This document shows, piece by piece, positions 28,765-42,094 of a DNA stretch of 64,000 nucleotides. The position numbers and the translations under genes were made by a program. A model generated the notes under the pieces. It was not told the origin of the DNA, made no database searches, and worked only from the letters and a program-made list of their open reading frames with translations. Numbering within the stretch: the first letter of the stretch is position 1; every line of letters starts with the position of its first letter. Source of the DNA: Emcibacteraceae bacterium. GTDB taxonomy: Bacteria > Pseudomonadota > Alphaproteobacteria > Sphingomonadales > Emcibacteraceae. Location of the stretch: NCBI GenBank assembly GCA_021774795.1, contig JAJFIR010000014.1:310001-374000 (forward strand), in the 5' to 3' direction.

Positions 28765-29967
28765 ATGTCTACACCCAAATCAATTCTTGCTTTTTTCGGT
28801 ACAACCGCAATTACAACTGCATTAATTGCTTCATCTTCTTTTGCCCAAGATCAAGACTTAAAAGTTACCTGGAAAGGGGCACCTGAACTTTCAAGCGCGG
28901 ATGGTAACTTTAAAGTGAAACTTCGTGGCCGCGTCTTCACAGATTGGGCGACAATTTCAGATAATAGCGGAAAAGAAGTCGACGCCACTGAACTTCGTAC
29001 GGCACGTCTCGGAATCGAAGGCGTGGTTATGAAAGACATTAAATATAAATTTGAAATCGATTTTGCCGGAAATGAAACCAACATTACCGATGCAAATTTT
29101 GAATGGGCACTAAAGCCCGTCTCGGTTGTAGTGGGGCAGTTTAAAACGCCTACGTCATTGGAAGAGCAAACATCAGGTCGCTTCACGACATTCCTGGAGC
29201 GTGGCAGCTTCACAGATGCATTTGGTTTTAGTCGCCAGATCGGTATCGCAGCAAACTACTCACAAAATAATATCACGTTTAAAGCCGGCGTATTCCAAGG
29301 AAATGCTAATGGCGGAGCCGGAAAAGACCAAGGGCGAGTATTCGCTGCTCGAGCAACCTTTACTCCCCAAATTGGAAATGGTGACGGCTTTATCCATATC
29401 GGTGTATCAGCATTTCGCCGCGAAAACGACGACGGTGTCCTGACAAGAAGCTATAGCCAGAGGCCACATAGCCATCTTTCAAAAATTAAATATGTTTCAA
29501 CCGGCAGCTTTGCAGCAGAATCTGATACGTTCTTTGGTGCTGAACTGGCTGGCGTCATGGGACCACTTTCCATTCAAGCTGAATGGGGATGGATGAAATC
29601 AAACGCCCTAGTCGGAGGGATGGACGCTAAATTCAACGGCGGATACGTAGATATCAGTTACATCTTGACCGGCGAAAGTCGTGGGTACAAAAATGGTGCT
29701 TTTGACCGCATCAAAGTTAGCAAACCCGTTTATCAAGGTGGTTCAGGAGCATGGCAGATTGCCGCGCGATACGACATCATCGACCTTACCGATACAACTG
29801 CCTCTGTGTTCGGCGGCAAGCAAACGTCTTATATAGTCGGGATAAATTGGCTTTTGAATAACTATTCCCGCGTCATGGCCAACTATTCAAAATCTGATAT
29901 TGATGGTGGTGTAAACGATGGTGAAAGTATTGACGCCATTGGTTTAAGGTTCCAGGTTGACTGGTAG
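28765..29967 (+). CDS. Phosphate-selective porin (OprO/OprP-like)
   Basis: Signal peptide; 'LRTARLGIEGVVMKDIKYKFEIDF', 'VVGQFKTPTSLEEQTSGRFTTFLERGSFTDAF'. Confidence 0.88.
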   Translation: MSTPKSILAFFGTTAITTALIASSSFAQDQDLKVTWKGAPELSSADGNFKVKLRGRVFTDWATISDNSGKEVDATELRTARLGIEGVVMKDIKYKFEIDFAGNETNITDANFEWALKPVSVVVGQFKTPTSLEEQTSGRFTTFLERGSFTDAFGFSRQIGIAANYSQNNITFKAGVFQGNANGGAGKDQGRVFAARATFTPQIGNGDGFIHIGVSAFRRENDDGVLTRSYSQRPHSHLSKIKYVSTGSFAAESDTFFGAELAGVMGPLSIQAEWGWMKSNALVGGMDAKFNGGYVDISYILTGESRGYKNGAFDRIKVSKPVYQGGSGAWQIAARYDIIDLTDTTASVFGGKQTSYIVGINWLLNNYSRVMANYSKSDIDGGVNDGESIDAIGLRFQVDW

Positions 29968-30004
29968 TCATATTTAGTTAAGAACCGCATATTTTTGGAT
30001 AAAA

Positions 30005-30028
30005 GGCAGGGCTCAAGCCCTGCCTTTT
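30005..30028 (+). terminator. Rho-independent terminator after the porin gene
   Basis: ggcagggc-tcaa-gccctgcc-tttt perfect hairpin and T-run. Confidence 0.85.
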
Positions 30029-30063
30029 ATTATTTTATTCAAACACTTAATATTGGGTGATGA

Positions 30064-30103
30064 CTGTAACAAAACATTCACAAATCTGTCCCATAACTGT
30101 AAC
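30064..30103 (+). promoter_or_regulatory. Pho box array, four half-sites with exact 11-bp periodicity
   Basis: CTGTAAC(30064)-aaaa-CATTCAC(30075)-aaat-CTGTCCC(30086)-ataa-CTGTAAC(30097), upstream of pstS. Confidence 0.8.
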
Positions 30104-30209
30104 TAACCGCGATTATATTTTTCACATGAATAGAAAACAGGAAACTAAAGAAAACAAAGAAATTGCGAGTTTAAAACTCAAACTAATAAATCTTATTGGA
30201 GAAAATTAT

Positions 30210-31247
30210 ATGTATAAAAAAACAACAATAACCTTAATGGGTATTGGCATGATCGGTATGTCTTTGATTAGCACAGCCGAAGCCCGTGACCAAATTCGCA
30301 TTGTAGGTTCGTCGACCGTCTTTCCATTTTCAACTGCGGTAGCAGAAGAATTCGGGCGGTCTACATCCTTTAAAACGCCTGTCGTTGAAAGTACCGGTTC
30401 AGGTGGCGGACTAAAATTGTTCTGTGCTGGTGTTGGTGAAAGCCATCCTGACATAACAAATGCCTCCCGTGCAATCAAAGGTTCAGAAGTGGAATTATGT
30501 GCTAAAAACGGTGTTAGCGATATCATTGAGATCAAAGTGGGCTACGATGGCATTGTTCTCGCTAATTCAAAAAAAGCGCAACAAATGGATTTCAAATTGC
30601 GGGATATATGGCTTGCTCTTGCAAAAGATGTTGTCCTTGACGGTAAAATTGTACCAAATCCATATAGTACTTGGAATGAAGTAAACCCTGAACTTCCTAA
30701 CAAGAAAATTGAAGTGCTTGGCCCGCCTCCTACCTCTGGAACCAGAGATGCATTTGCGGAGCTAGCACTCGAAGGTGGCTGCAAAAAATTTCCCGAAATT
30801 AACGCCATTAAAGCAGAAAATAAGGATCAATATACAGCACTATGCCACACTATCCGCGAAGATGGTGCTTATATAGAAGCTGGTGAAAACGACAACTTAA
30901 TTGTTGGGAAACTGCAAGCAAATCCAAACGCTATAGGAGTATTCGGCTACAGTTTTCTGGAAGAAAATAATGATGTTATTCAAGGTAGTGTTGTTGAAGG
31001 GTCCCTCCCAACCTTCGAGAACATTGCCGAGAAAACCTACAAAGTATCTCGCTCTTTGTTCTTCTATGTAAAAAAAGCCCACATCAACACAGTAGTGCCC
31101 GGAATTGAAGAATACCTTGGTGAATTCCTCAGCGACAAAGCAATGGGTGATTTCGGATATCTGGCTGAAAAAGGTCTCATTCCATTACCCGGTGGTGAGT
31201 TACGAGAAATACAAAATACGGCGACCAATCTCATTGCTATGCAATAA
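30210..31247 (+). CDS. pstS: Phosphate ABC transporter substrate-binding protein
   Basis: 'QIRIVGSSTVFPFSTAVAEEFG', 'ESTGSGGGLKLFCAG'; signal peptide when started at 30210. The called start at 30057 lies immediately upstream of the Pho box, so the extended N-terminus would translate through it. Confidence 0.92.
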   Translation: MYKKTTITLMGIGMIGMSLISTAEARDQIRIVGSSTVFPFSTAVAEEFGRSTSFKTPVVESTGSGGGLKLFCAGVGESHPDITNASRAIKGSEVELCAKNGVSDIIEIKVGYDGIVLANSKKAQQMDFKLRDIWLALAKDVVLDGKIVPNPYSTWNEVNPELPNKKIEVLGPPPTSGTRDAFAELALEGGCKKFPEINAIKAENKDQYTALCHTIREDGAYIEAGENDNLIVGKLQANPNAIGVFGYSFLEENNDVIQGSVVEGSLPTFENIAEKTYKVSRSLFFYVKKAHINTVVPGIEEYLGEFLSDKAMGDFGYLAEKGLIPLPGGELREIQNTATNLIAMQ

Positions 31248-31260
31248 TCAAGCTATGAAA

Positions 31261-31286
31261 GGCTAGTTCACAGGAACTAGCCTTTT
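31261..31286 (+). terminator. Intrinsic terminator between pstS and pstC
   Basis: ggctagttc-acag-gaactagcc-tttt. Confidence 0.8.
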
Positions 31287-31424
31287 AATTTTGACTTTTA
31301 TGCTGTTATAATATTCTGTACTGGTGTAGTTAACTGATAATTTTTACGGTTGGGAAATTCAAATAAGAACCGTTAAAACATTCAAAAATCAAAATAATCT
31401 ACCATTTTTGTATTGGTATAATTT

Positions 31425-32447
31425 ATGAATATATTTCTACTTTTAGTTATTTTGACCATTGCTCTGTATGTTTTAAAATCATACGGAGTTTTCGGTCAAT
31501 TCAGCTATAAATTAGTAAAACCGTTGAAACGATCGCGAACCAAAATAGAAGCGGTTATTAAATTTATATTGCTAACATTTTCCATAATTGCCGTATTGAC
31601 GACTGTTGGTATACTATTTTCCCTTATTTTCGAAAGTGTCCGGTTTTTTGAAAAAGTTTCAATAACGGAGTTCGTTTTTGGGATAAAATGGAGCCCACAG
31701 ACAGCAATTCGCATTGACCAAATTGGTAGCTCGGGAGCCTTTGGGGCGGTCCCATTATTTATGGGTACCATGTTGATCACGGTAATAGCGGTGTCTATCG
31801 CCGCGCCAATAGGTTTAATGTCAGCGATATTTATGTCTGAATTTTCCAATAAAAAAGTCAGAAATATTGCCAAACCATTGTTGGAAATACTGGCTGGAAT
31901 TCCTACAGTAGTATACGGTTTTATCGCCGCACTCGTCGTCGCTCCCTTTATTCGCAATACAGGCGCAGCTTTAAATGTCGAAATCGCTTCTGAAAGTGCT
32001 CTTTCCGCTGGAATTGTAATGGGTGTAATGATTATTCCACTTATTTCTTCACTTTCGGATGATGTGATTAGTGTGGTGCCACAAAGCTTATCAGAAGGCT
32101 CTTTGGGCTTAGGGGCAACAAAAACCGAAACAATCTTAAAAGTAGTATTACCATCCGCGCTTCCCGGTATTGTTGGGGCTTTACTGCTTGCGACATCCCG
32201 CGCGATTGGGGAAACAATGATTGTGGTCATGGCCGCCGGGATGGCGGCAAACTTGACAGTTAACCCACTTGAAGCCGTAACAACCGTTACCGTGCAAATA
32301 GTCGCCCTTCTCACTGGCGATCAGGAATTCGCAAGCGCAAAAACTCTTTCGGCATTCGCGCTTGGCCTTGCATTATTCATTACAACATTAGTGCTTAATG
32401 CCATCGCATTAATTATAGTGCGGAAATACAGAGAGCAATATGACTGA
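31425..32447 (+). CDS. pstC: Phosphate ABC transporter permease PstC
   Basis: 'PLLEILAGIPTVVYGFIAALVVAPFI', 'EGSLGLGATKTETILKVVLPSALPGIVGALLLATSRAIGETM'. Confidence 0.93.
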   Translation: MNIFLLLVILTIALYVLKSYGVFGQFSYKLVKPLKRSRTKIEAVIKFILLTFSIIAVLTTVGILFSLIFESVRFFEKVSITEFVFGIKWSPQTAIRIDQIGSSGAFGAVPLFMGTMLITVIAVSIAAPIGLMSAIFMSEFSNKKVRNIAKPLLEILAGIPTVVYGFIAALVVAPFIRNTGAALNVEIASESALSAGIVMGVMIIPLISSLSDDVISVVPQSLSEGSLGLGATKTETILKVVLPSALPGIVGALLLATSRAIGETMIVVMAAGMAANLTVNPLEAVTTVTVQIVALLTGDQEFASAKTLSAFALGLALFITTLVLNAIALIIVRKYREQYD

Positions 32448-33768
32448 TATTCAGGAAACAGACATCGTGTCTCGCCGCGTCAACTGGCATTCGAAAAGCC
32501 AGAAAGACCGACTTGAGAGCCGATATAGAAAAGAAAAGATATTCAAGGCACTTGCTGTCTCTAGTTTATCAATTGCTATTGTTGCTTTGCTTGTTGTGCT
32601 GGTGAGTATTTTAACAACAGGAATAAGTGGATTTAAGGAAACCAGAATTGAACTTGATATATATCTGGACAGAGACATAGTTGGTGAAGTTCCTAATCTG
32701 GACGCAGCGGGCCTAAAAGACCATTATGCGACGATTAACATTAATAGTCTTCTTATCAAATCCTTACAGAAAAAGTTTCCGGAAGTTTCTTCGCGACGTG
32801 ATGTTTTCTCGCTCCTTAAATTGTTTAGTGTCGGAGCACAGTCAGACATACGTGATACCTTGATAGCCGACCCTGACCTTGTCGGTAAAACCCATACTAT
32901 ATCACTCTTATCTTCAAGCATTGTGGACATGTTTATAAAGGGTAAAATATTACGAGATGTTGAAGAAAATAACCGCAAAATATCAGACCAACAAATTGCA
33001 TGGCTTGATCAGTTTGAATTAGAAGGTAAAATAAGTCAAAATTTCAATTGGACATTTTTTACCAATGGTGACAGCAGAGAACCAGAGCTAGCCGGAGTAA
33101 GGAGCGCGACGGTTGGCTCCCTTTTAACATTATTTGTCACTTTTATAATCTCTTTTCCTATTGGTGTCGGCACGGCTATTTATCTGGAAGAATTCGCACC
33201 TAAGAACAGATATACAGACCTTATAGAGATAAACATCAACAACCTGGCAGCGGTACCATCCATCATATTCGGATTATTGGGTTTAGCTATATTCATTGGG
33301 TTTGTAGGATTACCGCGATCTGCCCCACTTGTCGGCGGTCTTACTTTGGCACTAATGACACTGCCAACAATCATTATTACGGCCCGTGCTGCAATTAAAG
33401 CAGTACCGCCTTCTATAAAAGAAGCAGCGATTGGTTTGGGTGCTTCGCATATGCAGATGGTCTTCCATCATGTGCTTCCTTTGAGCATGCCGGGAATACT
33501 CACAGGGTCAATTATCGGTATGGCACAAGCCTTGGGTGAAACAGCCCCGCTTTTAATGATCGGTATGGTCGCGTTCATTGTCGACACGCCAGGTGGAATA
33601 ATGGAGGCGTCAACAGCCCTGCCGGTTCAAGTATATCTATGGGCTGATAGCCCCGAGCGTGGTTTCCTCGAGAAAACTTCGGCGGCAATCATGGTGCTTT
33701 TGCTCTTCCTGATTGTGATGAATGGCCTAGCTATTTGGATGCGGCAAAAATTTGAAAAGAAATGGTGA
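32440..33768 (+). CDS. pstA: Phosphate ABC transporter permease PstA with long N-terminal extension
   Basis: '[23 protein letters not shown]', '[49 protein letters not shown]'. Confidence 0.93.
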
Positions 33769-34580
33769 ATAATATGAATATGGTAAATTTAACCGATGAG
33801 CTAGAGGCAAAAGCCGACACAAGTGCTCCAAAAATACGCGCCCAAAAAGTAAATGTACATTACAGCTCTAACCATGCACTTAAAGATATAAATTTAGATA
33901 TATACCCTAACGAAGTCACCGCTCTTATAGGACCTTCCGGATGTGGCAAATCAACCTTCTTACGTTGCCTTAACAGAATGAATGACACTATCGATATTTG
34001 CAAGGTAGAAGGGCGCATTACACTCGACGGGCAAAATATAAATGATAAAAAAATTGATGTTGTAGAACTGCGAGCTCGGGTTGGGATGGTATTTCAAAAA
34101 CCAAATCCATTTCCAAAATCAATATATGACAACGTAGCTTACGGTCCACGGATCCATGGCATCGCTCAAAACAAACAGGAACTCGATGATATCGTTTGGT
34201 CCAGCCTTAAAAAAGCGGGCCTTTGGAACGAAGTCCATGACCGCCTTGATGCCTCTGGCACTTCATTATCGGGCGGCCAACAACAACGGTTATGCATCGC
34301 AAGAACCATCGCGATCGAACCCGAAGTTATCTTGATGGATGAACCCTGCTCTGCTTTGGATCCTATAGCAACGGCTATTATCGAGGAATTAATAGAGGAT
34401 CTGAAAAATAGATATGCTATAGTTATTGTAACGCATTCTATGCAACAGGCGGCCAGGATATCCCAGAAAACAGCATTCTTTCACTTGGGAAAGTTACTTG
34501 AGCACGGCGACACAACAACTATATTCACAAACCCTGTGCACGAAAAAACAAAAGATTATATCACTGGCCGTTACGGTTAA
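33762..34580 (+). CDS. pstB: Phosphate ABC transporter ATP-binding protein
   Basis: '[19 protein letters not shown]', '[36 protein letters not shown]'. Confidence 0.96.
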
Positions 34581-34596
34581 ATTTAAGGAACAAGTT

Positions 34597-35313
34597 ATGC
34601 CTAATTCACATATCGTAAGTTCATTTGACGAAGATTTGCAAAAACTTCGTGACAAGATCACTGACATGGCTGAGCTTGTTGCAGATCAGTTTAGTGACGC
34701 AGAATGCGCGCTTACTACAAAAGATTTAAAGCTCGCCGCTCAGGTTAAAGAAAAAGATAATTACGTCGACCAAATGGAACAGGAAATTGAGAAAACAGCG
34801 ATTGAAATGATTGCAATAAGGTCGCCAATGGCTGATGACTTGCGCGAAATTATTTCCGCAATTAAAATAAGTAATGCTTTGGAGCGAATTGGTGATTACG
34901 CAAAAAATTTATCCAAGCGCGTATCGGTTCTAAGCGAAGTTGGTGATTATACTGTAAGTTCTTCAATAATCAGCCAAATGATTTCAATCATCAATGTCAT
35001 GAACGAAGACGTTATTGATGCTTATATTCACAAAAGCCCCGAAAAAGCTATTTCCGTTTGGACACGTGACCTGGCTGTGGATAATCTTTACAATAGTTTA
35101 TTTCGTGAGCTACTGACTTATATGATGGAAAACCCGGAGTATATAACCGCTGCCACACATTTATTGTTTGTAGCAAAGAATGTAGAGCGCGCAGGCGACC
35201 ACATAACAAATATTGCTGAACTTATATATTATATTGTCGAAGGAACGCCGCTGGAAATGGTCCGCCCAAAAGGCGACAATAGTAGTGAGACAAATGTAGA
35301 ATTCTCAGGCTAA
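34597..35313 (+). CDS. phoU: Phosphate signalling regulator PhoU
   Basis: 'MPNSHIVSSFDEDLQKLRDKITDMAELVADQ', 'RIGDYAKNLSKR', 'ERAGDHITNIAE'. Start moved from 34498, which overlaps pstB, to 34597. Confidence 0.94.
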   Translation: MPNSHIVSSFDEDLQKLRDKITDMAELVADQFSDAECALTTKDLKLAAQVKEKDNYVDQMEQEIEKTAIEMIAIRSPMADDLREIISAIKISNALERIGDYAKNLSKRVSVLSEVGDYTVSSSIISQMISIINVMNEDVIDAYIHKSPEKAISVWTRDLAVDNLYNSLFRELLTYMMENPEYITAATHLLFVAKNVERAGDHITNIAELIYYIVEGTPLEMVRPKGDNSSETNVEFSG

Positions 35314-36233
35314 CTTACAATTAGTATAATCACTGGTATTGTAACGACCGAAAGCAACGTTTGTAGTGAAATGATGGCAGCCATCAACGGTGCATCACCG
35401 CCCATATATTTCGCGAGAGCGTAGGCAGTGGACGACGTTGGTACAGATACAAAAATAACCGCACTCACACTCATTATAGGTGGTAATTCGAAGTATTTTG
35501 CAGCTGCAAATACAGTGGCCGGCAAAATTATCATCTTTGACATACTCGCGATCAAGCATGGCGCGACGAATTTTCGCATATTTCCGAATTGAAGGCCAGC
35601 ACCCACACAAATTAAAGCAAGTGGCAAAGCCGCTTTACCCAAATAAGTCGTAAAATCATGGAATATGGGCAGATGGCCCCAATCAAAGTAATTAAATGTC
35701 AATCCTGCGGCGATCGCCAAAATAAAAGGGTTTCTCAAAATTTCTGAAATAATACTTGGTTTTCCTTTACCGGTGTCCGACAAAATTGATGTCATAAATA
35801 TCACGGTTAAGATATTTGAAAAACTGACCATTACAGCAACAGCCAGTGCACCGACAATTTCCCCTTGTTCGCCGAAAAACTGACTTATAACGGCAAGCGC
35901 AATAAATGAATTGTGACGCCCTCCACCTTGAATTACCGATGATAGTGATGCGGCACTCATCCCGTACATTTTGCTAGCGACGTACGCAACGGACACCGCG
36001 ACTAAGTAACCTAATATCATTGATGCAGAAAACAGACCGACTGAAAAGCTGTCCAAATCGATCACAGACGTTTTATTAAAAAGTAGTGCCGGAAATAAAA
36101 TCCAGTAAGTCAGCCTATTTATTTGGTACCAAATTTTTTCATCAGAAATCAAAATACCTTTAAGAACTCCTCCTAAAAGTATGACTAGAAATATTGGTGC
36201 AACTAAATAGATTAAATTTTGCACGTCAAACAC
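35310..36233 (-). CDS. AEC-family (auxin efflux carrier-like) transporter
   Basis: 307 aa; 'QGGGRHNSFIALAVISQFFGEQG', C-terminal 'PTSSTAYALAKYMGGDAPLMAAIISLQTLLS'. Confidence 0.88.
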   Translation of the reverse strand: MFDVQNLIYLVAPIFLVILLGGVLKGILISDEKIWYQINRLTYWILFPALLFNKTSVIDLDSFSVGLFSASMILGYLVAVSVAYVASKMYGMSAASLSSVIQGGGRHNSFIALAVISQFFGEQGEIVGALAVAVMVSFSNILTVIFMTSILSDTGKGKPSIISEILRNPFILAIAAGLTFNYFDWGHLPIFHDFTTYLGKAALPLALICVGAGLQFGNMRKFVAPCLIASMSKMIILPATVFAAAKYFELPPIMSVSAVIFVSVPTSSTAYALAKYMGGDAPLMAAIISLQTLLSVVTIPVIILIVS

Positions 36234-37148
36234 TCAATTTAACAGCAATATTATCAGTGGTAAGGTAAAAACCGATAATAATGTCTGAATGGATATTAAG
36301 GTTGCCATTAGCGGCGCATCGCCGCCCATTTGTTTTGCAAGTGGATAGCTCGCAGCACCCGCTGGCGACATGGCAAATACCATCGCGGAAACCGTTAAAA
36401 TATGGGGTAGCTCCAGATAACGTGCGAGCAAAAAAACCGTGACAGGAAAAACAATCATTTTCGCTACGGTCGCGATAACGCAAGGCAGCGTATTTTCACC
36501 AATGCTCCTAATTTGAAGGCCTGCTCCCACACAAAGAAGCGCCGTTGTCAGAGTTGTCTCACCCACACTTAATGTAAAAGCATGTAATATCGGAAGGTTA
36601 CCCAGTCCAAGAATATTAAAGACCGCCCCTACCAAAATTGCCAAGATAAACGGATTTCTTTTTAAATCTCTTAAAATACTACCCACACCCGAACCTTTAG
36701 GGGACAACATCATAGTAAGTGTAATATTGACCACCAGGTTGGTAAAGGTAACAAGCACAGCTATAATAATTGCAGCGATCATTGCTCCTTCTTCACCGAA
36801 AATCTGCGTCACAATCGCCAAAGCAATAAAGGCATTATGTCGTCCGCCACCCTGTATTACAGATGTGAGCGAGGGCACCGAAATTCGAGCCATCTTACCG
36901 GCAATAAACGAAAATAAAACAGCCATCAGAAACCCAGAAATAACGGTTATTGATAACGGGCCAAACGCAAAATTTTCGAAATTAATGACAGAAGTTTTGT
37001 TGAATAACAAGCAGGGAAACAAAACCCAGTACGCGAGCTTGTTAATATGTTGCCAAACTGTGTCTTCGGTAACCAGATGCTGTTTTACTAGTTTTCCTAG
37101 TAAAATAATCATAAAAATCGGCGCAATTAAAAAAATTAAATCTATCAT
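36234..37148 (-). CDS. AEC-family transporter, paralog of the adjacent gene
   Basis: 'QGGGRHNAFIALAIVTQIFGEEG', 'PAGAASYPLAKQMGGDAPLMATLISIQTLLS'. Confidence 0.88.
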   Translation of the reverse strand: MIDLIFLIAPIFMIILLGKLVKQHLVTEDTVWQHINKLAYWVLFPCLLFNKTSVINFENFAFGPLSITVISGFLMAVLFSFIAGKMARISVPSLTSVIQGGGRHNAFIALAIVTQIFGEEGAMIAAIIIAVLVTFTNLVVNITLTMMLSPKGSGVGSILRDLKRNPFILAILVGAVFNILGLGNLPILHAFTLSVGETTLTTALLCVGAGLQIRSIGENTLPCVIATVAKMIVFPVTVFLLARYLELPHILTVSAMVFAMSPAGAASYPLAKQMGGDAPLMATLISIQTLLSVFTLPLIILLLN

Positions 37149-37294: not shown

Positions 37295-38038
37295 ATGGTA
37301 TTTCGCATTTTAGTTACATCGTGCATAATTCTAATTGCACAGAATGTTTTCTCTCAAGAAAGTTTGAGCGATGATTTCAAAATAAAAACTACGCCGCGTG
37401 AAATAACCGGATCAGAGTTGTCAGAAAAAAATAGTGATTATATTAATCCTGATCAAAAAATTATTTATGCTGTTTACCCTCCTAATGATTTTAACCCGTC
37501 TGCAAAAACAGGTATTATGGTTTTCGCCGGAGCTTACAAGGATAATCATCCCACTTTTAACTGGTTAAGTTCTGTTAGAGAAAGCAATCTAATTTATATC
37601 GAAGCTCTTGTCTCGGATGTAGATTCGTCATTTCGACAACGTCAAATACTGGCTGAAATGGCCGTACCATTACTTGAAAAAAGATATAACATTGACGAAA
37701 ACAGGATATATATTTCTGGTGAAGGACGTGTCGCTAGCGTTGTTGCCATGAACAATCCTGGTATTTTCAAAGGCGCAATTTACACAAACGGAAATTTATG
37801 GACCGAAAACGCTGAAACTAAGTTAGATTCAATTAAACAAAATAAATTTGTATTCATAACCGGAGATTTAAAAAGCCGCGCAAAACAAGCCAGGGATGTT
37901 TATGGAAAATATAAAAAAGCCGGAATTGAAAACTCAAAACTTATCTTCCTTAATCCAGTAAGAAGTTCTAAAATCAAGCGGATAGATTTAGTTAGGGCTA
38001 TTAATTATTTAGATGATCCAGATTCAAGTAGTAAATAA
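37295..38038 (+). CDS. Secreted alpha/beta-hydrolase-like protein, copy 1; catalytic residues appear lost
   Basis: Signal peptide; 'ENRIYISGEGRVASVVAMNNPGIFKGAIYTNGNLW' aligns with copies 2-4 but lacks the GxSxG serine. Confidence 0.7.
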   Translation: MVFRILVTSCIILIAQNVFSQESLSDDFKIKTTPREITGSELSEKNSDYINPDQKIIYAVYPPNDFNPSAKTGIMVFAGAYKDNHPTFNWLSSVRESNLIYIEALVSDVDSSFRQRQILAEMAVPLLEKRYNIDENRIYISGEGRVASVVAMNNPGIFKGAIYTNGNLWTENAETKLDSIKQNKFVFITGDLKSRAKQARDVYGKYKKAGIENSKLIFLNPVRSSKIKRIDLVRAINYLDDPDSSSK

Positions 38039-38069
38039 CATACAACCATTAATTATTTGAGGTGCAATA

Positions 38070-38840
38070 ATGTTTACTAGATTTTATATTTCAATTTTAT
38101 TGATTTTTTGTGTGCAACAATCAATTGCCTATTCACAGGATATTTCGCCTTCAATTCAAACCGGCGCATTTTCAATTAGCAACACACCAATTGAAATACT
38201 AGGGCAGGAAATGGCCTCGTCATATATTGATATGCTGGATCAGAATGAGCAAATTACGTGGGAAATATATGTTCCCACAACTTATGATGCGAATAAACCA
38301 TCGGGAATAATGGTATATATAAGTCCCCAGAATAGCATAAAAACACCAAATGGCTGGATGGACATCATGGAGCAAAATAACCTCATCTGGGTAGCAGCAA
38401 CTCAATCAGGTAATAAAGTGATGGCGGGAAAAAGGGTGCTTATGGCTGTTATGGCACTTCCTTTACTCCAAAAAAACTATGCCATTAATGGCAATCGCAT
38501 TTATGTTTCCGGCCTTTCTGGCGGAGGGCGCGTTGCCAGCATTGTCGCAACGCAATATCCGAATATATTTAAAGGGGGGATATATAATTGTGGTTCAAAT
38601 TTTTGGGGTGACCAAACGCCAACCCAGATCGACCTTATAAAACAAAACCGCTTTGTTTTCGTTACCGGTAGTGAAGATTTTAATTTGGAGGATACCAAAA
38701 GCGTAAGAAGTAAGTATAGAAAAGCTGGTGTGGAAAATACGAAACTTATGGTTATCCCGCGAATGGGACATCAAAATCCAAATCGAAGAAAATTTACCCA
38801 GGCCATCAAATATCTTGACGAAAATAAAGCGGTAAACTAA
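38070..38840 (+). CDS. Secreted alpha/beta hydrolase, copy 2; apparently intact
   Basis: Signal peptide; 'GNRIYVSGLSGGGRVASIVA' nucleophile elbow (Ser codon 38517-38519), 'GSEDFNLEDT', 'MGHQNPNR'. Confidence 0.8.
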   Translation: MFTRFYISILLIFCVQQSIAYSQDISPSIQTGAFSISNTPIEILGQEMASSYIDMLDQNEQITWEIYVPTTYDANKPSGIMVYISPQNSIKTPNGWMDIMEQNNLIWVAATQSGNKVMAGKRVLMAVMALPLLQKNYAINGNRIYVSGLSGGGRVASIVATQYPNIFKGGIYNCGSNFWGDQTPTQIDLIKQNRFVFVTGSEDFNLEDTKSVRSKYRKAGVENTKLMVIPRMGHQNPNRRKFTQAIKYLDENKAVN

Positions 38841-38897
38841 CCGATTTTACTGTAAGAAAATTGTCCTTTCTAAATCGACATTAACGGAGCATATTTC

Positions 38898-39644
38898 ATG
38901 TATTTACGATTGTTAATTATTTCTATTTTCATGATAATATCGCAAAATACTTTGGCGGAAGTTCCAATAAAGGGAGCTTTTAAATTAACATCTACAGCTT
39001 CCGATATCCTAGGTCCGGAAATTTCTGCGACAAACAGTTCCGTAATTAAAGAAGACGAAGAACTGAAATGGGAAGTCTTCGTGCCGTCAAGTTATAATCC
39101 GGAAAACCCACCAGGTGTAATGGTTTATGTTAGTCCCGAAAATCATATGAAAAACGTACCGGCAAGCTGGACAGGTGTTATGGAACAAAATAATTTAATT
39201 TGGATCGCCGCCACCATGTCCGGGAATACCGTTTTAACGGGCAGAAGAATTTTAAAAGCCCTAATGGCGCTACCGTTAATACAAGAATCCTATAAAATTA
39301 ATCAAAACCGCTTTTATGTTTCTGGATTTTCCGGTGGAGGGCGCATCGCTAGTATTATTGCTAAGGAGTTTCCTCATTTATTTAAAGGGGCGATTTATAA
39401 TTGTGGAGTAAATTATTGGGATAGAAAAGCCCCTTCGCGATTGGATTTGATCCAAAAGAACCGCTACGTATTTATTACAGGCACCGACGATTTTAATTTG
39501 GAAGACACCAAAAATGTATACAGAAAATATAAAAAAGCCGGTGTAAAAAATGTTAAACTTATGATCATAACACGTATGCCACATAGCAATCCTAGCCGGG
39601 TTAAATTTAATCAGGCTGTAAAATATCTTGATGATAAATCATAA
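38898..39644 (+). CDS. Secreted alpha/beta hydrolase, copy 3; apparently intact
   Basis: Signal peptide; 'QNRFYVSGFSGGGRIASIIA' (Ser codon 39330-39332), 'GTDDFNLEDT', 'MPHSNPSR'. Confidence 0.8.
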   Translation: MYLRLLIISIFMIISQNTLAEVPIKGAFKLTSTASDILGPEISATNSSVIKEDEELKWEVFVPSSYNPENPPGVMVYVSPENHMKNVPASWTGVMEQNNLIWIAATMSGNTVLTGRRILKALMALPLIQESYKINQNRFYVSGFSGGGRIASIIAKEFPHLFKGAIYNCGVNYWDRKAPSRLDLIQKNRYVFITGTDDFNLEDTKNVYRKYKKAGVKNVKLMIITRMPHSNPSRVKFNQAVKYLDDKS

Positions 39645-39754
39645 TTATTTTTCAAGTGAGAATAATTGATAATTAGTTCGCTAATATTATTCTATGCCCT
39701 ATATAAGAATATAAGTAATATAAAACTATACAAAAACACCATTAAGGGCGAAAT

Positions 39755-40519
39755 ATGTTTTTAAGATTTTTACCTTCTATTTTTCTAATTATTTTCTCAG
39801 TAAATTCAATGTCATTCGCACAGGATATTGAAAAAGGGTCTTTTATTATTAAAGCAACCAGTGGGGATATATTGGGCTTTGAAATGGCATCATCATATTC
39901 CCCGGTTCTTGAAACAAACGAAGTGATGAGTTGGTCAGTGCATGTACCTGAAAATTATAATCCGAACGATCCGCCCGGCATAATGGTCTATGTAGGGTTC
40001 AGGAAATTAGTAAAAGAACCACCTGGCTGGATGAGTGCGATGGACGATAGTAATTTAATTTGGATCAGCGCAAATAGCTCAAATAACAACATCGAGCGAA
40101 AAAAAATGCTGCTTGCAATCCTGTCCCTTCCTCTATTGCAAATGGATTACGTAATAAATACTAATAGAATTTATATCGCAGGCTATCAGCATGGTGGTGA
40201 AATTGCCAGTGCCGCCGCTCGTGTTTATCCTAATATTATTAAGGGTGGTATCTATATTAATTGCGATCCCAGAACATGGGGTAAGAAATTACCTCCACAA
40301 ATAGATGTGATGAAAGAAAACCGTTATATATTCGTTTCAGGAAAACAAAATATTGCAAAGCAAGTAATGCGTTATGCAATTAAAAAATATAACAAAGAAG
40401 GCATTAATAATACCAAACAAATGATCATAAATCATATGGGTATAACCGAAAACATCCGTCGCCCAAAATTACTTGAGGCGATAGAATATTTAGATCAAAC
40501 TGAAAATAGTGATGATTAG
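39755..40519 (+). CDS. Secreted alpha/beta-hydrolase-like protein, copy 4; catalytic residues appear lost
   Basis: Signal peptide; elbow reads 'IAGYQHGGEIASAAA' with Gln (codon 40187-40189) replacing Ser. Confidence 0.7.
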   Translation: MFLRFLPSIFLIIFSVNSMSFAQDIEKGSFIIKATSGDILGFEMASSYSPVLETNEVMSWSVHVPENYNPNDPPGIMVYVGFRKLVKEPPGWMSAMDDSNLIWISANSSNNNIERKKMLLAILSLPLLQMDYVINTNRIYIAGYQHGGEIASAAARVYPNIIKGGIYINCDPRTWGKKLPPQIDVMKENRYIFVSGKQNIAKQVMRYAIKKYNKEGINNTKQMIINHMGITENIRRPKLLEAIEYLDQTENSDD

Positions 40520-40522
40520 ACC

Positions 40523-42094
40523 TTACTGCAGGTAGTTAATAAACTTTGGTTTATGCCGTGCTTTGCTAGCTTGTTCAAAGGAGTACGCGGCCTCTATCAT
40601 CAACGCTTCGCTATAAGCGCGGCCAACGAATGACAGCGATACCGACAACTCATGAATATATCCCATGGGAACAGTGATCGACGGATACCCACTAACAGCA
40701 GCATAAGAGGAAGTCCCTCCCCCACTAGGAAGGTCTCCATTCACAAGATCCTGACTATTTGCGGGATTGCGTGAGGGCATAACAATCATATCCAGATTAT
40801 GTTGATCCATTAATTCATTAATGACTTTTTGCATCGCAATATTACTATCCTGAACTGCCTTAAGATACTCGGCTTCCATCAAGGAACCTTTCTCTTGCGA
40901 ACCAACAAATATCTCCTGCTTAAAATATGGCATTTCCTTATCGGCATTGTCGTTATTATAATCAATCAAATTGGCAAGCGTTTTACTTTTAACCGCGTCA
41001 GGAGTACCAGATAAATATGCGTTAAGATAATGCTTAAATTCGTATCTCAGAACCAAACCTTCGGCCGCGCCTATTCCGTCACGGTTGCCAAATTCAATAT
41101 CGTTTATCAATATAGCTCCTTGCGCTACCATCGCTTCCAAGCTTTTTTCAAATATTGGACCGAGATCATCATGCATGCGAAACGGTTCACGAATAACCCC
41201 TATTCGCTTACCCTTAAGACCGTCTGAAATTAAGTGCTCCGCATAATTTATTTTATCTTCAGGTTGCATCATGCTTCTGGGATCTTCCGGGTTTTTGCTA
41301 ACCATTTCCGTAAGTAAGATCGCGGCATCTTCCACCGTTCTTGTCATTGGTCCCGCCGTATCCTGCGTTTCTGCTATGGGAATGATGCCAGTACGACTAA
41401 CAAGTCCAACGGTTGGTTTAATCCCGACAACGCCGTTATAGGCGGAAGGACAAACGACCGACCCATCGGTTTCTGTACCAATGGACACTGCTGTCATATT
41501 TGCCGCCGTTGCAGCACCGGAACCTGAACTTGAACCGCAGGTATTCGCGGTTAACAAATATGGGTTTCGCGTTTGACCGCCTACTCCACTCCACCCGCTT
41601 GAACTATTAGAAGACCTAAAATTGGCCCATTCACTTAGATTAGCTTTACCGAGTATAATAGCACCGGCCTTTCTTAGAGACGCGACCATAGGGGCATCTT
41701 TTACGGCGAAGTTTCCGCTCAATGCATGCGATCCGGCCGTGGCCGGCATTCGGTCCATGGTATCTATATTATCTTTGAGCAGTACCGGAATTCCATGCAT
41801 CGGTCCTCTCGGGCCATTTTCGGCGCGTTCTTTATCAAGTGCTTTTGCGATTTCAACAGCGTCTGGATTAATAGCAATCACCGCATTCAGATGAGGCCCT
41901 TTTTTATTAAGAGCATCAATGCGTTCCAAATAAAGTTCTACGATCTGAACCGAGGTATATTTACCGCTTTCAAAGGCATCATTTAATTCGCGTACGGTAA
42001 TTTCATTCAATTCAAATTCCGCTACGTTCTGCTCCTTTTGTGCGCAGGAAACCAACAGCGTCATAAGAACCAATATTCTGACTTTTTTCATCAT
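40523..42094 (-). CDS. Amidase-signature family lipoprotein
   Basis: 'GSSSGSGAATAANMTAVSIGTETDGSVVCPSAYNGVVGIKPTVGLVSRTGI'; lipobox-like 'LLVSCAQ'. Confidence 0.92.
   Translation of the reverse strand: MMKKVRILVLMTLLVSCAQKEQNVAEFELNEITVRELNDAFESGKYTSVQIVELYLERIDALNKKGPHLNAVIAINPDAVEIAKALDKERAENGPRGPMHGIPVLLKDNIDTMDRMPATAGSHALSGNFAVKDAPMVASLRKAGAIILGKANLSEWANFRSSNSSSGWSGVGGQTRNPYLLTANTCGSSSGSGAATAANMTAVSIGTETDGSVVCPSAYNGVVGIKPTVGLVSRTGIIPIAETQDTAGPMTRTVEDAAILLTEMVSKNPEDPRSMMQPEDKINYAEHLISDGLKGKRIGVIREPFRMHDDLGPIFEKSLEAMVAQGAILINDIEFGNRDGIGAAEGLVLRYEFKHYLNAYLSGTPDAVKSKTLANLIDYNNDNADKEMPYFKQEIFVGSQEKGSLMEAEYLKAVQDSNIAMQKVINELMDQHNLDMIVMPSRNPANSQDLVNGDLPSGGGTSSYAAVSGYPSITVPMGYIHELSVSLSFVGRAYSEALMIEAAYSFEQASKARHKPKFINYLQ

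Follow-up and report, generated by a model that had tools for sequence, protein, structure and literature searches.

The tandem array and its fold assignment

The window, a stretch of 64,000 nucleotides, contained four consecutive genes between 37295 and 40519 (Table 1). A preliminary description had read them as tandem secreted alpha/beta-hydrolase-fold paralogs; open reading frames, motifs, export signals and fold confirmed this, and the motifs quoted for all four copies were found in the translations exactly as written. The intergenic gaps from copy 1 to copy 4 were 31, 57 and 110 bp, in order. Copies 2 and 3 were 54% identical, and the other three copies were 33–36% identical to copy 1. 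Each N-terminus had a hydrophobic segment and a plausible AXA-type cleavage site (heuristic hydropathy/AXA check), signals that make export of all four proteins plausible. Scanning the array for promoters and terminators detected no excess over shuffled sequence (18 vs. 16.0 ± 4.5 and 2 vs. 3.5 ± 2.1, respectively).

Table 1. Genes and catalytic sites of the array and its immediate neighbours (window positions)
Feature	Position	Strand	Length	Assignment and basis
AEC-type membrane transporter	35310..36233	-		Pfam Mem_trans 1.3e-08; synteny
Second AEC-type transporter	36234..37148	-		Same sequence family as the 35310..36233 gene
Copy 1	37295..38038	+	247 aa	Predicted clade B pseudoenzyme; elbow cut to SGEGR
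Copy 1 elbow SGEGR	37715..37729
Copy 2	38070..38840	+	256 aa	Group A, predicted active-type secreted hydrolase; SGLSGGGR / GSEDF / MGHQNP
Copy 3	38898..39644	+	248 aa	Group A, predicted active-type secreted hydrolase; SGFSGGGR / GTDDF / MPHSNP
Copy 3 Ser145 codon	39330..39332
Copy 3 His229 codon	39582..39584
Copy 4	39755..40519	+	254 aa	Predicted clade C pseudoenzyme; AGYQHGGE, GKQNI, HMGITEN
Secreted (lipobox-like) amidase	40523..42094	-		Pfam Amidase 1.8e-88; conserved downstream neighbour by synteny

Copies 2 and 3 can be assigned by sequence to the alpha/beta-hydrolase fold superfamily, and the Ser-Asp-His triad together with a GxSxGG elbow marks them as predicted serine hydrolases. In Pfam they matched Peptidase_S9 (PF00326) above the cut-off over 44–100 residues (copy 2 as a partial match, 31.4 bits against a cut-off of 22.6) and several esterase families more weakly. 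Copies 1 and 4 matched no Pfam family. In NCBIfam all four copies gave sub-threshold matches to PHB-depolymerase-type esterases; membership of the PHB depolymerase family itself (TIGR01840, NF050058) was rejected, all scores falling far short of the curated cut-offs (at best 42.6 vs. 150 bits and 33.7 vs. 107.85 bits). TIGR01840, NF050058, PF10503 and PF00326 resembled copies 2 and 3 in fold and local elbow sequence, whereas only a weak residual match to them was left in copies 1 and 4.

That copies 1 and 4 had kept the fold was borne out by confident AlphaFold2 models (pLDDT 85.6 and pTM 0.82 for copy 1; pLDDT 87.2 and pTM 0.84 for copy 4). Foldseek matches of both models were alpha/beta hydrolases, with E-values of about 1e-10 to 1e-9 and TM-scores of about 0.5–0.6. 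Among the PDB matches of copy 1 were the thermostable esterase 3doh and DPP4; those of copy 4 included prolyl tripeptidyl aminopeptidase and feruloyl esterases. The models thus place both proteins in the superfamily as predicted members. In the copy 1 model the strand passed directly into the next helix, the elbow being missing. Annotation from fold alone would name genes of the copy 1 and copy 4 types esterases.

Relatives, phylogeny and arrangement in the genus

The comparison set comprised the source genome and 13 others of its marine genus (14 in total), plus outgroups; most of the relatives were MAGs. Several marine MAGs named “Kordiimonadaceae bacterium” belong to Emcibacterales (PMC8879329). 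A search of 100 related genomes detected family members in 10 of the 13 other genus genomes; three genomes from a different family had one copy each. Extending the search to 400 genomes drawn from the order brought in distant relatives only, and a class-level draw gave four further genomes with distant members.

In a tree of 43 sequences, copies 2 and 3 fell in a group designated A, copy 1 in clade B (support 98/90) and copy 4 in clade C (97/93). Removing the triad and elbow columns and adding distant outgroups left C at 98/93 and B at 83/79. By their sequences, copies 1 and 4 therefore belong to two separate predicted pseudoenzyme clades. A purely local expansion, in which the four window copies form a single clade, was rejected by the AU test (p 0.002). 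The same test gave p 0.032 for a clade of copies 2–4 and p 0.074 for a clade of copies 1–3, which was not quite rejected; one shared catalytic loss for B and C was not rejected (p 0.4).

The array was not unique to the source strain, a point on which the preliminary description had staked its reading: of the 14 genus genomes, 8 had B-type and 9 had C-type copies, mostly at the same locus. The array was syntenic in about ten genomes, and a divergent pair of AEC-type transporter genes flanked it in most relatives. It lay beside one or two such genes in G003, G005, G006, G007, G008, G010 and G011, and directly after phoU in G004 and G013; the opposite flank was the amidase gene and mtnA wherever the contig extended far enough. 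Array size ranged from 1 to 5 copies, and locus contents included A alone (G010), A and C (G011), A and B (G007) and A-B-B-C-C (G013). The dead copies had been described as outermost; this held for the source array and failed as a conserved arrangement, the usual order in other genomes being an active copy first, then B, then C.

Of the 10 genomes with A, 8 also had B-type copies, and the 4 genomes lacking A had no B-type copy, counts that rest on few, related genomes. G002 (99% complete) lacked A and had just one C copy, in agreement with a profile search, and in several genomes C was found outside the array. No family copy was detected in G001, G009 or G012, the last just 53% complete. In G065, a genome of another family, an A-type copy was the sole member.

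Several further observations were made on gene context. Just upstream of the array, the window carries phosphate-selective porin, pst and phoU genes (28765–35313), and at least phoU also neighbours the array in most relatives. G003 contained a second array (L044 and L047) whose proteins were identical to those of G005, probably through mis-binning, as contamination of the G003 MAG. A fifth, B-like family member of the source genome lay on another contig (G000:C30:248680-249318; L041:4675-5418, at a contig end). It ended 10 bases upstream of a TonB gene that precedes a TPR gene; other such TonB genes occur on contig C25, so this TonB-TPR pair is an extra one. The active-type copy of G065 likewise had a TonB-TPR pair within a few genes (L059:6400-11390). 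Scanning the neighbours of distant relatives for a hint of the substrate gave nothing consistent.

Catalytic positions in the four copies and their clades

Copies 2 and 3 had Ser, Asp and His at the triad positions (S145/D198/H229 in copy 3 numbering). The claim that all three positions were altered together in copies 1 and 4 was upheld by alignment, neither copy having Ser, Asp or His at the aligned sites. The copy 1 elbow was three residues shorter than SGFSGGGR and was followed by GDLKS and NPVRSS. In copy 4, Gln replaced Ser at the nucleophile position, and the Asp and His positions were also lost.

S145, D198 and H229 were invariant in 13/13 group A members and in the six outgroup sequences of the rooted tree. 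Since all six outgroups carried the triad, catalytic activity is the predicted ancestral state of the family. Ser, Asp and His were also present in 4 of 5 class-level relatives, the fifth (L095) being without Ser alone. This protein (L095:1489-2259; G490, another family) had an elbow Ser-to-Gly change with Asp and His kept, an apparently independent loss of only the nucleophile.

In clades B and C pooled, 2/24 sequences retained the Ser and 1/22 the Asp, and none (0/22) had the His. The two Ser-keeping sequences were C members without His, and the Asp-keeping one was the fifth copy (L041), without the elbow. Among 34 columns invariant in the 13 active homologs, the triad columns ranked first, third and fourth by loss in B and C; the second was Pro232, which adjoins the triad His. 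The chance of three random columns all landing in the top four is 4/5984. Eight columns of the core (e.g. W91, N99, R138, G164, F192 and D245) were kept in every B and C member. Copies 1 and 4 thus appear from their sequences to be homologs within an enzyme family from which the conserved catalytic motifs are absent, as in pseudoenzymes.

The elbow shortening by three residues was common to all B members (SGEGR vs. SGFSGGGR; single variants read VGR and EPR). The Gln of copy 4 was also found in L056 of G010, so this state is not private to the source strain. The fifth copy, basal in B, retained Asp and a near-aligned His with the elbow already gone, and by its residues would represent an intermediate stage of catalytic loss.

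Probable maintenance and candidate roles of copies 1 and 4

Selection was estimated for each clade by codon maximum likelihood, with a custom implementation of the codon model. Neutral dN/dS, named beforehand as a sign of decay, was not obtained: clade-level ω was far below 1, with 2ΔlnL against ω=1 of 1378 (A), 1094 (B) and 1252 (C), the likelihoods indicating strong purifying selection on each clade. The clade ω values (0.016–0.027) are rough and unreliable as magnitudes because dS was mostly saturated. A B pair with a moderate, unsaturated dS of 1.13 gave ω 0.139 (2ΔlnL 55.7). On the terminal branch of copy 4, ω was 0.08 (2ΔlnL 4.97); on that of copy 1 it was 0.13 (2ΔlnL 3.0), which was not significant, and neutrality was not rejected. 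As had been claimed, the reading frames have stayed open and the N-terminal export signals and the core of the fold are retained; with few exceptions this held for the B and C members of the different species. Most related species had dead versions too, at the same position of the chromosome, indicating that they are old and maintained, not decaying. By clade-level codon likelihood and conserved synteny, copies 1 and 4 are, as members of clades B and C, probably kept by selection.

One C-type copy of G005 (L048:506-1237; G005:C168; L048_656) carried an in-frame TAG, and its ortholog in G013 was intact. This copy appears from its sequence to be a real decaying member, so some decay does occur. 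Together with the three genus genomes without any copy, it indicates that the set is dispensable.

The clades, the purifying selection, the retained fold and the want of a conserved His in B and C all support the earlier suggestion that the outer copies are maintained secreted pseudoenzymes, and we consider it probable that copies 1 and 4 are such proteins with a predicted non-enzymatic job. We propose that a single ancestral secreted serine hydrolase (alpha/beta-hydrolase fold, Ser-Asp-His) would have duplicated in tandem before most sampled species of the genus diverged, and that two daughter lines would have lost catalysis and stayed as secreted non-catalytic proteins. Line B (copy 1) would have lost the nucleophile elbow through a 3-residue in-frame deletion, and line C (copy 4) the nucleophile through substitution. 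The B proteins might work alongside the active enzyme, either as its partner subunit or in competition with it, binding substrate or product without cleavage; the C proteins might be independent binding proteins.

A partner or competitor role of B is put forward tentatively, as the best guess, because every genome with B also has A, and B lies next to A in the array. An independent role of C is suggested because G002 keeps C alone. That the whole array encodes a secreted hetero-oligomeric hydrolase, with dead B and C subunits regulating or aiming the living one, we regard as rather unlikely; if true, the prozyme principle (see below) would have an equivalent in bacteria, encoded in tandem and built on the alpha/beta-hydrolase fold.

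As a variant of the pseudoenzyme reading, overlapping with that preferred here, both copies could be secreted proteins with binding roles of their own, in ligand capture or surface adhesion, tied to the active copies by descent alone. The C copy of G002, the C copies away from the array and the B-like fifth copy just upstream of TonB and TPR genes are what this would predict, whereas array B always shares both genome and gene row with A; we hold it to be a real possibility, short of an even chance.

Copies 1 and 4 could instead be enzymes whose catalytic apparatus is different or has been relocated, the same fold then supporting a new chemistry. Migrated residues have been described in pseudoenzymes (PMC10211241), clade B has conserved residues of its own at the old active site (A78-G79, Q115, EGR 143–145 and K176 in copy 1 numbering), and a Cys occupies elbow +3 in 11/13 members of clade C (e.g. 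L049:5662-6423). However, this Cys is absent from copy 4, and copy 1 lacks the elbow, its entire sequence containing just one His. When a conserved His was sought in every column of B and C, none was found (best 6/11 in B and 5/13 in C), which argues against the relocated triad that had been named as a refuting structure. New chemistry is accordingly judged improbable. Another Cys, after the next strand, was present in 13/13 C members, copy 4 included; a disulfide may, as a guess from these residues, staple the dead elbow in most C proteins.

Functionless decay of tandem duplicates present only through array regeneration, to which the in-frame TAG, the existence of fragments, the varying array size and the unrejected neutrality of the copy 1 branch could point, is very improbable, being strongly disfavoured at clade level by the low ω in B and C, by frames, export signals and fold core kept despite saturated dS, and by lesions common to several species and not private.

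The best-studied pseudoenzymes are those of animals. Non-catalytic alpha/beta-hydrolase-fold proteins of animals include neuroligins, glutactin, gliotactin, neurotactin and the thyroglobulin C-terminal domain (PMC5943944). Like copies 1 and 4, these have an extracellular alpha/beta-hydrolase fold without a functional triad, theirs being kept for protein binding (PMC5943944); they differ in being eukaryotic, of the cholinesterase-type subfamily and outside any tandem array with an active paralog, and neuroligins bind neurexin. The trypanosome prozyme is a dead paralog that activates the living AdoMetDC (PMC5201418). It would offer a model for copy 1, likewise a predicted dead paralog encoded beside an active-type enzyme; fold and organism are different. 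A bacterial example is PcrP, a HAD-superfamily protein that is non-catalytic and binds other proteins (PMC12632274). It resembles copies 1 and 4 in having an enzyme fold without catalytic residues, and has a binding role. It differs in having the HAD and not the alpha/beta-hydrolase fold, and the available part of its source reports no tandem active copy.

Precedents for the partner and binding modes thus exist on other proteins, and none is the same system. In the open-access PMC literature, no direct precedent was found for bacterial alpha/beta-hydrolase pseudoenzymes or for tandem active/dead hydrolase arrays, nor any bacterial case with an adjacent living alpha/beta-hydrolase sister and two separate dead lineages. 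The set offers a compact system for how an enzyme fold gets reused without catalysis, with a natural series comprising the intermediate fifth copy (L041) and genomes with A only (G065), A and B (G007), A and C (G011) and C only (G002).
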